From NCBI GenBank assembly GCA_001725415.1, contig MEGH01000006.1, positions 25,022 to 89,021 of the forward strand: 64,000 nucleotides of DNA, given 5' to 3'. The notes under the pieces are model-generated. The model did not search any database. It was not told the DNA's origin and saw nothing but the letters and a program-made list of their open reading frames with translations. The translations under genes and the position numbers were made by a program. The DNA comes from Pseudonocardia sp. SCN 73-27 (GTDB taxonomy: Bacteria > Actinomycetota > Actinomycetes > Mycobacteriales > Pseudonocardiaceae). This document shows, in pieces, positions 25,692-61,767 of this stretch. How positions within the stretch are numbered: position 1 is the stretch's first letter; each line of letters starts with the position of its first letter.

Positions 25692-27452
25692 ATGGTGGAC
25701 GACGTGAGCCGCACCCACCCTCCCCGGAGCCGTTCGGTCCCGGCCACGCCCGACGCCCCCGACCTCGGCGAACCCCAGTCCGACGCGCCGGGCCCCGACC
25801 CGGGCGACGGCCTCGACCGCCTCCGGATCCTCCTCGCCTCCGCGATGGGGACCGTGCTCGTCAGCTACGGCGTCCTGCTCCCCGCCGCCGCGCTCGTCGT
25901 CCTCACCGCCGGTTCCGGCATGTCCGTCGACGGTGTCTTCGCCACCGCCATCCCGCTCTGGCTGGCCGCGCACCAGATCCCGCTGACCGTCGTCGGCGCG
26001 CCCCTCAGCGTGCTCCCGCTGCTGCCGACGCTCGTCCTCGTCCTGGTCGTCGCCGCCGGCGCCCGCTGGTCGGTGCGTCGCCTCGGTGGCCGCATCCGCA
26101 CCGACGGCGGCGCCGTCCTCGCCGCCCAGGCCGGGGCGCACGCCGCTGTCGCCGTCCTCGCCAGCGCCCTGCTGCCCGCCGCCGCACCCGTCTCCGTCGC
26201 CCCCTGGGCCGCGATGGTCGGCGCCGGTGTCGTCGCCGCCCTCGCCGCCGGGCTCGGGCTGCTGCGCCAGTGCGGCGTGCCCGCCGAGTGGCGCGCCCGG
26301 CTCCCGCGCTGGGCCCCACCCGCGCTGCGCGGCGCCGCCGCCGGGCTCCTCGCCCTCGTCGCCGCCGGGGCCGCCGTCCTCGCCGTCGGCGCGGTGCTGC
26401 GCGCCGGGGAGGTCGAGGCTTCCTTCGCAGCACTCGCCCCCGGCTTCGGGTCGTCGCTGGGCGTCTTCGTCCTGGCTGTCGCCTACCTGCCCAACGCCGT
26501 CGTCGCCGGGGCGTCGTGGCTGCTCGGACCCGGTGTGTCGGTCGGGGCAGCCGCGGCCTCGCCGTTCACCGTCGCCGGTGGCCCGCGGATGCCGTTCCCG
26601 CTGCTCGCCGCCATGCCCGAGACCCCGCCCCCGGCCTGGGTCCTCGTCGTCCTGCTGGTCCCGCTCGCCGTCGGCGCCGTCGTCGGGGCCGCGTGCCGAC
26701 GCGCCCTCGCCGACGTCCCCGACGTGAAGCTGCGGCTGCGCGCCACCGCCGCCGCGGCGGTGCTCGTCGCGCTCGGGGTGGTCGTCGCCGCCCTGCTCGC
26801 CGGGGGCCGGCTCGCCGCGGGGCAGTTCGACCCGGTCCGGTTGCGTCCGGAGTTGCTGTTGCCCGCCGTCCTGCTGTGGGTGGGTGGTCCCGCTCTCCTG
26901 GTGGCGACGTTCCAGCGCTCCGTCCCCGGAGCCGTCGCGCTCGTCGAGGAGCCGGAGTTCGAGGAGATCGAGGACGAGCCGGAGCCGTCCGACGAGCCCG
27001 CGCGCAACCTCATTGCTGTCGAGGAGCGACGGAACGACCGTGAGGTTGCGGACGAGCCCGGCGACGACTCCGACGACGGCTCCGGCGACGAGTCCGAGGC
27101 GGACGAGTCCGGCGGTGTGTCTGCGGCCGGGTCCGATGCCGGAGGGTCCGACGGTGAGCCTGCCGACGAGTCCGACGCCGGCGGGTCCGACGGGTCCGAC
27201 GGTGAGCCTGTGACCGGGTCCGACGCCGGCGAGTCCGACGGCGACTCCGACGGCGGGTCCGGGGCCGGGGGGTCCGACGCCGGCGAGTCCGGCACGAGCG
27301 ACGATCCGGCTGACGACGAACCCGCGCGCAACCTCACTGCTGTCCGGGGCCGCCGGGAGGACCGTGAGGTCACGGCCGAGGCCCCGCGGAAGCCGCAGAC
27401 CGTGGCCGAGCTCGTCGCCCAGCGGCAGGCCGACGGCGACGCCGACTGGTGA
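25692..27452 (+). CDS. perM: PerM-like DUF6350 multi-pass membrane protein with palindromic elements in its tail
   Basis: A 586-residue protein. Residues 35-425 form 8-10 hydrophobic helices typical of DUF6350. M. tuberculosis PerM (Rv0955), at the same place between the DUF5336 gene and purN, stabilises the divisome through FtsB (recalled). The C-terminal 160 residues are cytoplasmic and acidic, with tandem GSD/DES/AGG repeats. Two copies of a 51-bp palindromic element lie in frame at 27001-27051 and 27325-27375, each encoding ARNLxAVxxRRxDREV, exactly 108 codons apart. The protein ends [20 protein letters not shown], with a TVAEL motif like that in the glycine-rich surface protein. ATG 25692 or GTG 25704 could start it. 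Confidence 0.85.
27001..27051 (+). repeat. Palindromic element copy A, in frame within perM
   Basis: A 51-bp element with inverted ends (CGCAACCTCA / TGAGGTTGCG). It encodes [17 protein letters not shown]. The ten bases gacgagcccg flank it directly on both sides (26991-27000 and 27051-27060), which could be a target duplication or chance in this repetitive tail. Confidence 0.8.
27057..27312 (+). repeat. Acidic low-complexity coding repeat in perM
   Basis: Degenerate tandem units of the type gacgagtccgacgccggcgg encode alternating Asp, Glu, Ser and Gly. They lie exactly between the two palindromic copies, as if this tail had grown by unequal recombination or slippage. Confidence 0.7.
27325..27375 (+). 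repeat. Palindromic element copy B, in frame within perM
   Basis: Same element and same codon phase as copy A, encoding [17 protein letters not shown]. The left flank gacgaacccg resembles that of copy A. The right arm has changed (TGAGGTCACGG). Confidence 0.8.
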
Positions 27453-36172: not shown

Positions 36173-36205
36173 CGACCCGCCTCGTAGTCGGGGAGCACCG
36201 AACCG

Positions 36206-36256
36206 CGCGCAACCTCATGGTTGTCCTGGCGCCGGACGACGACCATGAGGTTGCGG
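36206..36256 (+). repeat. Palindromic element copy C
   Basis: A 51-bp element whose arms gcaacctcatggttgtc and gacgaccatgaggttgc pair over 17 positions with one mismatch, the best palindrome of the family. It lies just after the thioredoxin gene and before the recQ remnant. Confidence 0.8.
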
Positions 36257-36267
36257 CCGATCTGCCG

Positions 36268-36285
36268 CGCGCAACCTGACGGTCC
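36268..36285 (+). repeat. Half copy of the palindromic element
   Basis: CGCGCAACCTGACGGTCC repeats the left half of the element 11 bases after copy C. The right half is missing, and recQ-derived sequence follows. Confidence 0.55.
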
Positions 36286-36350
36286 TCCCAGGGCCCGGAG
36301 CTGCATCTCGCGGCGCACCTGCTCGCGACGCCGACCGGCGCAGGCGGCGG

Positions 36351-48385: not shown

Positions 48386-48459
48386 CCGCGCCAGGGGCAG
48401 GCCCCCGCCGCGACGGCCCCGTGCCGTGTGAAGGCCCCGCGCCGTGGGGAGAACGCTGC

Positions 48460-48510
48460 GCGCACCCTCACGGTCGTGAATCGGCCGCGGAACAGCAGTG
48501 AGGCTGCGCG
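48460..48510 (-). repeat. Palindromic element copy E
   Basis: Read on the minus strand it begins cgcgcagcctcactgctgtt and ends gaccgtgagggtgcgc, aligning to the other copies over 51 bases with changes in both arms. It is intergenic. Confidence 0.75.
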
Positions 48511-48680
48511 GGGGTTCGGCCGGCTCCGCTGCGGCCCGCCTCCGGGCGAACGAACGGGCAGGGCGCCGCGGCGGGCGGGTTTCAACCTCCGGGGCAGGCC
48601 GTCTGTTCCGGGAACGGCCGGGCGTGTGACGAGAGCGCCACGGGGGCGCCCGGTCGGTCGACCCTCGCGCGGGGGCGACC

Positions 48681-61663: not shown

Positions 61664-61668
61664 CCCTG

Positions 61669-61719
61669 CCCGCAACCTCACGGTCCCGGGCGGGCTCCGG
61701 ACAGCGGTGAGGTTGCGCG
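61669..61719 (-). repeat. Palindromic element copy D
   Basis: Five bases after the murJ stop. The arms cgcaacctcac and gtgaggttgcg pair perfectly over 11 bases. Read on the minus strand it aligns to copies A and B (cgcgcaacctcaccgctgtc start). Confidence 0.8.
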
Positions 61720-61767
61720 GTCTGTCGGCCCGGCGCGCAGGTCGATGCCGCGGCCGGGAACGCCGAC

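Follow-up and report, generated by a model that had tools for sequence, protein, structure and literature searches.

A probable REPIN-like family of palindromic repeats at gene 3' ends in a Pseudonocardia clade, with rare in-frame copies inside genes

MITEs are non-autonomous inverted-repeat units. REPINs, found in Pseudomonas, are inverted REP doublets with invariant inverted ends and a poorly conserved spacer of fixed length; they are extragenic, occur in many copies, form near-identical head-to-tail clusters and are associated with RAYT and with compensatory changes in the spacer (PMC3116915, in the passages drawn on here). Two large REP super-families are defined by GTAG and CGTC tags, and consist of short palindromes of 20-40 bp located downstream of coding regions, between convergent or unidirectional genes; those of the CGTC type apparently have no dedicated transposase, and occasional intragenic copies are described (PMC3733652, as excerpted). 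Rickettsia palindromic elements are ~150 bp long, nearly half of them being found in ORFs (PMC10969869, as excerpted).

The window analyzed in this work is a stretch of 64,000 nucleotides from Pseudonocardia sp. SCN 73-27 (assembly GCA_001725415.1, contig MEGH01000006.1, positions 25,022 to 89,021). One of its ORFs (25692-27452) matches Pfam DUF6350 over residues 67-405 (E=2.8e-47), and an NCBIfam search of the same ORF gave no name. We take this DUF6350 gene to be the one named perM (Rv0955 in M. tuberculosis), and its neighbors to be presumably purN-purH. A match to perM was obtained in 59 of 62 genomes of the genus. The C-terminal tail of the PerM-like protein is acidic and of low complexity, and it contains both copies of an imperfectly palindromic element, which share 81% identity across 70 nt, are spaced by exactly 324 nt (108 codons) and in their common reading frame give ARNL[I/T]AV...DREV. 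An earlier note on this DNA had described two related palindromes in the same phase 108 codons apart, which these data confirm. It had also given the unit as 51 bp, i.e., 17 codons, so that insertion would keep the frame. This size proved to be an underestimate and is rejected here, since the profile gives ~58 bp and the arrays repeat every 62 bp; neither figure is a multiple of three, so that a whole unit, once inserted, would not on its own leave the frame intact. The palindrome of copy 2 has partly decayed, its right outer arm (GTGAGGTCACGG) being lost; this copy falls outside the 43 exact copies described below and, as RNA, folds no better than shuffled sequence (z -0.2 on the + strand and -1.1 on the - strand). 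The coordinates of all these features are collected in Table 1.

Table 1. Coordinates of the element copies and of the genes carrying them (window positions unless a contig is given)
Feature	Position	Strand	Remarks
PerM-like gene (Pfam DUF6350, PF19877)	25692..27452	+	586-codon ORF; Pfam match; two in-frame element copies in tail
Element copy 1 in perM	unit 26998..27055, exact-arm core 27005-27048	+	in frame; 50.7 bits
Element copy 2 in perM	unit 27322..27379, core 27329-27372	+	in frame; 39.8 bits; right outer arm decayed
Element copy, intergenic, stem nearly fully paired	36203..36260		51.7 bits; RNA fold z -6.2; counterpart in P. sulfidoxydans
Partial element (one half) adjoining the 36203 copy	36265..36296	-	12.8 bits
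Element copy, intergenic, arms mutated	48456..48513		37.1 bits; ends placed by hand from match; counterparts in P. sulfidoxydans and P. dioxanivorans
Element copy, intergenic, between convergent genes	61666..61722		43-bp exact-arm core 61673-61715; counterparts in N23 and P. dioxanivorans
NDP-forming acyl-CoA synthetase with element copy	C5:95761-97818		outside window; copy in interdomain linker

The note had proposed a search of the whole genome, and it is evident from that search that the element is a dispersed family. The exact-arm pattern (CAACCTCA-N24..34-TGAGGTTG) occurs 43 times in the 6.95 Mb genome, while the reversed pattern gave 0 matches, and at 38 places the flanking G and C are present together with a gap of 26-30 nt. 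An HMM built from 13 copies and run on an 864-kb sample (the window plus 800 kb, ~12% of the genome) retrieved 31 sites of at least 10 bits, compared to a best score of 8.5 bits in reversed DNA. The conserved unit of ~58 bp is made of two inverted halves of ~22 nt flanking a variable center of 14 nt, with the layout CCGCGCGCAACCTCA-YKGYYGT-N14-mirror. Its inner seven-base segment is most often CGGTCGT, CTGCTGT, or TTGCTGT in this genome (41 of 90 half-sites), and the ancestral unit may have been asymmetric, with one half of each type. In the profile of 245 isolated half-sites conservation stops at -7, apart from a weak extension as far as -14, and the spacing between half-sites is nearly constant at 28 bp. 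A scan of the window against Rfam gave no match at gathering thresholds, and a literature search recovered no report of the family in open-licence PMC papers.

The element appears to represent a new family within a repeat type already described, not a new system. It shares with the REPINs, as far as the cited excerpts describe them, the inverted conserved ends, the variable spacer of fixed length, the extragenic location, the head-to-tail arrays and the high copy number, but differs in that its carriers have no RAYT match, compensatory change is hardly seen, the sequence is unrelated and it has been seen only in a Pseudonocardia clade. It also has the properties by which REPs are recognized, being palindromic, extragenic mainly downstream of genes, and present in many repeats with a common motif. 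Like the GTAG and CGTC REPs of the excerpts it sits on the 3' sides of convergent or unidirectional genes with occasional intragenic copies, whereas its length of 58 bp, the 14-nt variable center and the lack of a clear terminal tag set it apart. In positions -22 to -8 of the 245 half-sites GTAG was found in 5 and CGTC in 17, versus 1 and 25 in the control positions -44 to -30. Intragenic REPs having been described (PMC3733652, as excerpted), capture inside genes is as such already known. The likeness to MITEs lies in being a non-autonomous inverted-repeat unit, although here the center is only 14 nt and an unsystematic search identified neither a parent transposon nor a target-site duplication.

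Overall, we think it probable that this is an orphan REPIN-like family restricted to one clade, residing at gene 3' ends and only rarely captured in frame by genes. The location of the copies was determined with a purpose-written gene finder based on codon usage (86-91% coding, not the official annotation). Although ~90% of the sampled DNA is predicted to be coding, 41 of the 43 exact copies are intergenic, with 20 lying between convergent genes, 20 between co-directional and 1 between divergent ones. The expectation from the gaps of at least 58 bp is 7.0/21.9/12.1 in the same order (chi-square p=3.6e-8). At least one gene 3' end is faced by 40 of these 41 copies, and the distance from the core to the facing gene end is 30 nt or less in 31 of 60 cases. 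A similar picture is given by the 864-kb sample, in which 27 of the 31 sites are intergenic (of the other four, two are in perM, one is in the synthetase and the last is a half-site within a 42-codon ORF of doubtful status), and by three relatives, where 99 of the 101 sites in 59 exact-match loci are outside predicted genes (13 of these adjoin the end of the locus). The hairpin, or dyad, downstream of genes would most likely act on transcript 3' ends, as in REPs, or might be merely tolerated, and any use that the element has is more likely to be found at gene 3' ends than in PerM.

Within the genomes searched the family has narrow limits. Allowing up to two mismatches, we counted 216 copies in P. 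sulfidoxydans (G058), 122 in P. dioxanivorans (G010), 76 in this genome (G000) and 27 in Pseudonocardia sp. N23 (G037), out of 62 genomes of the genus; of the others, G014 had 12 (of a different type), P. acidicola 2 and four genomes a single copy, and the remaining 52 had 0. With the reversed pattern the same count gave no match in any of the four main carriers and a single one in each of G014 and G042. Exact matches in 200 genomes drawn from the bacterial family (46 genera) came only from this genome and P. dioxanivorans, the other carriers being outside that draw. In a scan of named genomes, 73 of at least 101 matching stretches belonged to Pseudonocardia, among the matches listed, and 7 of the 28 stretches from elsewhere in that same set, when checked by HMM, contained no site. 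A de novo count of inverted repeats in 200 kb each of G017, G056, and G008 revealed nothing resembling the element family, but this count is insensitive, since it ranked the family in the P. sulfidoxydans sample and did not do so in those of this genome, P. dioxanivorans and N23.

The search for a transposase covered G000, G058, G037, G010, and G014, these five genomes having at least nine exact copies each, with two models that were both positive in named control genomes. The Y1 transposase model (PF01797) had 0 matches in these five and was present in 5 of 62 other genomes of the genus, and the RAYT model (NF047646) had 0 at E<=1 in the five, with subthreshold matches in G007 and G040. Spread by a RAYT still present in the carriers is rejected on these two results. 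As G000, G058, and G037 are drafts (~100 to 210 contigs), a transposase gene could have been lost in a gap; the genome of P. dioxanivorans is nearly closed. The 58-bp unit was probably dispersed in the past by a transposase that went undetected in the carriers examined. The family would be a REPIN-like addition from actinobacteria, in a clade that gave no RAYT match, so that what spreads or maintains repeats of this kind becomes testable in the small group of P. sulfidoxydans, P. dioxanivorans, N23, and this genome.

At present the element appears to be inherited mostly at fixed intergenic sites and to multiply locally as head-to-tail arrays of 62-bp period. Neighbors separated by up to 300 bp are exactly 62 bp apart in 27 of 38 pairs. 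Their similarity is that of direct repeats, with a mean of 19.4 of 28 positions in common versus 14.0 in random pairs and 12.9 when inverted, and at least 22 of 28 positions are shared in 14 of the 38 pairs, versus 0.9% of random pairs. Identical centers were found in seven pairs among 157 copies (0.02 expected); six of these are neighbors, one being a perM pair of P. sulfidoxydans, and the only dispersed pair is also from P. sulfidoxydans. As to inheritance, 35 copies from relatives could be located on this genome, and for 29 of them an element lies close to the corresponding position, a tally that uses loose placing, includes three perM copies and lets several relative copies map to a single counterpart. 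The remaining six have no counterpart, and their junctions are not unit-precise. Five candidate empty sites gave no clean gap of 58 or 62 bp; the clearest absence (L149) concerns a segment of roughly 170 bp, element included, that seems to have been either lost or gained, and the other four had no clear junction.

The main alternative is that the copies are not mobile and represent a maintained, operator-like site for a sequence-specific DNA- or RNA-binding protein from the clade, with a role in the nucleoid, in termination or in chromosome organization, for which half-sites and spacing are conserved. At 14 orthologous pairs, differences were counted at 17 of 280 positions in the arms (6%), 60 of 196 in the inner segments, 87 of 196 in the center and 199 of 336 in the flanks (59%); seven of 21 named pairs were dropped from this set, their cores not being 44 bp, and the orientation taken was that of higher identity. 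The low divergence of the arms is more in keeping with maintenance than with an element that is entirely dead, and the half-sites are conserved with hardly any covariation, at a near-constant spacing and array period, and mostly at places common to several species. However, the arms served to find both members of each pair, so that their divergence tends to be underestimated; the copy number varies from 27 to 216 in four related genomes and is 0-2 in 57 of the other 58; and the binding protein is putative. We regard a maintained site of this kind as improbable, if well ahead of the explanations that follow, and it is similarly doubtful that dozens to hundreds of half-sites (28 bp apart, in 62-bp arrays of about six helical turns) are under selection at gene 3' ends. 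If they were, a putative actinobacterial protein would shape transcript ends or chromosome structure, and its site would occasionally become protein sequence.

The in-frame copies had led the earlier note to a resemblance with Rickettsia palindromic elements, which invade coding genes. As an explanation, this would make the element a selfish unit adapted to invading genes in frame. Part of this stands, as the element is a repeated palindrome that can be read in frame inside unrelated genes; a preference for genes does not. Clear in-frame copies are found in two genes, perM and an NDP-forming acyl-CoA synthetase. All of them use the RNL frame, which is open in 304 of 312 oriented reads of 156 copies (TSL is open in 270 and QP in 38). 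Against such an invader, only two of the 43 exact copies are genic, in contrast to the nearly half in ORFs given in the Rickettsia excerpts, and frequent in-frame insertion into ORFs was not found; moreover, only two genes are affected, the unit of 58 or 62 bp does not preserve the frame, and the only two of the 101 relative sites that overlap predicted genes do so at gene ends. A peptide search over four carriers (at least 312 matches) also gave, in the 30 loci inspected, genic copies only in perM and the synthetase, and relatives may have further ones. This reading is disfavored, and we consider it very unlikely.

Within the orphan REPIN-like family that we prefer, the best explanation of the genic copies is that they are accidental survivors, located where the protein is free to differ from one relative to the next. 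With two of the three frames usually open, genic survival of the element needs no special coding design, and the resulting peptides would be neutral. In the synthetase the copy is located between the alpha-type part (TIGR02717, below cut-off, to residue 447) and the ATP-grasp domain (from residue 474). A DNA scan of the synthetase loci of N23, P. acidicola, G014, and P. dioxanivorans found no element at the linker, and the linker of N23 has about the same length as the one with the element here, so that the element segment seems to have replaced or overwritten the linker rather than being simply added to it. The captures, in a protein tail in one gene and between two domains in the other, would be a natural case of noncoding repeat DNA turned protein-coding. 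Two other observations were made at synthetase loci. P. sulfidoxydans has lost nearly the whole gene (L332 5860-6030, C4, compared to the locus of this genome), one end of the deletion coinciding with the place of the element here. In G014 (L246) the linker is much longer and contains several REIRD/RDMG-like peptides, which might reflect expansion of another repeat.

The note had proposed comparing perM between relatives, and these do vary. Among 30 loci scanned, perM has two copies in this genome, three in P. sulfidoxydans and one decayed copy (17.9 bits) in N23, and the other 27, P. dioxanivorans among them, have none. In P. sulfidoxydans the centers of two copies are identical, and that of the third is similar to them, as are the centers of copy 2 here and of the N23 copy. 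This suggests that the tail copies arose by duplication of one old insertion within the gene. Copy 1 has a different center, and it is possible that it represents a separate, second insertion. An effect of the element on a divisome protein is not supported; PerM tails differ greatly in length and composition (16 tails from 30 loci, L064-L093, window 27060-27310 included). Extraction of these tails required a C-terminal motif plus a second motif, which missed the tail of P. dioxanivorans, although its locus was kept in the DNA scan. A TV[AG]ELVA-type motif is seen near the C-terminus after the tail, the same motif that served as extraction criterion.

A dedicated family of bidirectional intrinsic terminators would account for the short distances to gene ends, for the enrichment between convergent genes and for the folding of the window copies, four of the five tested being better than shuffled RNA (z -2.2 to -6.2, the exception being perM copy 2). 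It would not account for a conserved profile without a T-run, for conservation of sequence rather than pairing, or for there being just 31 sites versus 785 predicted genes in the 864-kb sample, and we hold it to be highly improbable. The covariation analysis of 156 copies was essentially negative, pairing at variable positions being in general no higher than in shuffled data. The exceptions are the center pair 21/22 (z 3.5) and another pair that is nearly invariant, and at 9/34 and 11/32 matches are fewer than expected by chance. Selection on RNA structure, as judged by covariation, is rejected on this result. One shared site has a C-G to T-A exchange.

The least probable explanation, that the perM repeats are a duplicated ARNLxAV...DREV peptide under protein selection in which the palindrome is incidental, could draw on the three peptide copies of P. 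sulfidoxydans and on the RREDRE retained in N23 despite a decayed palindrome, but as the origin of the repeats it is refuted by the same DNA at dozens of intergenic places, besides the 27 perM loci without the element, later selection on the perM copies at protein level being possible.

Other repeats were observed in these genomes. The 12 places in G014 represent what looks like a related family, in which the outer arms are TCAACCTCA and the inner ones are, for example, GCACCT/AGGTGC; the spacing is again 28 nt, and the inner arms are paired in several copies. This genome also has another palindromic family, of the type TCGTGAGTGGCGTTATTGGCCATGGCCAATAACGCCACTCACGA, whose members are 44 bp long and nearly perfect; the 864-kb sample contains nine copies, eight of them intergenic (C5 23227-23270, 24430-24473, 54893-54936, 79624-79667, and others, on C23 and C8 too, all outside the window). 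By eye, both sides of the stem of this second family have changed, and variants are found in G014 (3) and G010 (1). Lastly, the first 200 kb of contig C1 of G014 (L292-L301) have GTGAAACA inverted repeats in five intergenic regions, which we take to resemble parS sites, so that this stretch may lie near the origin.
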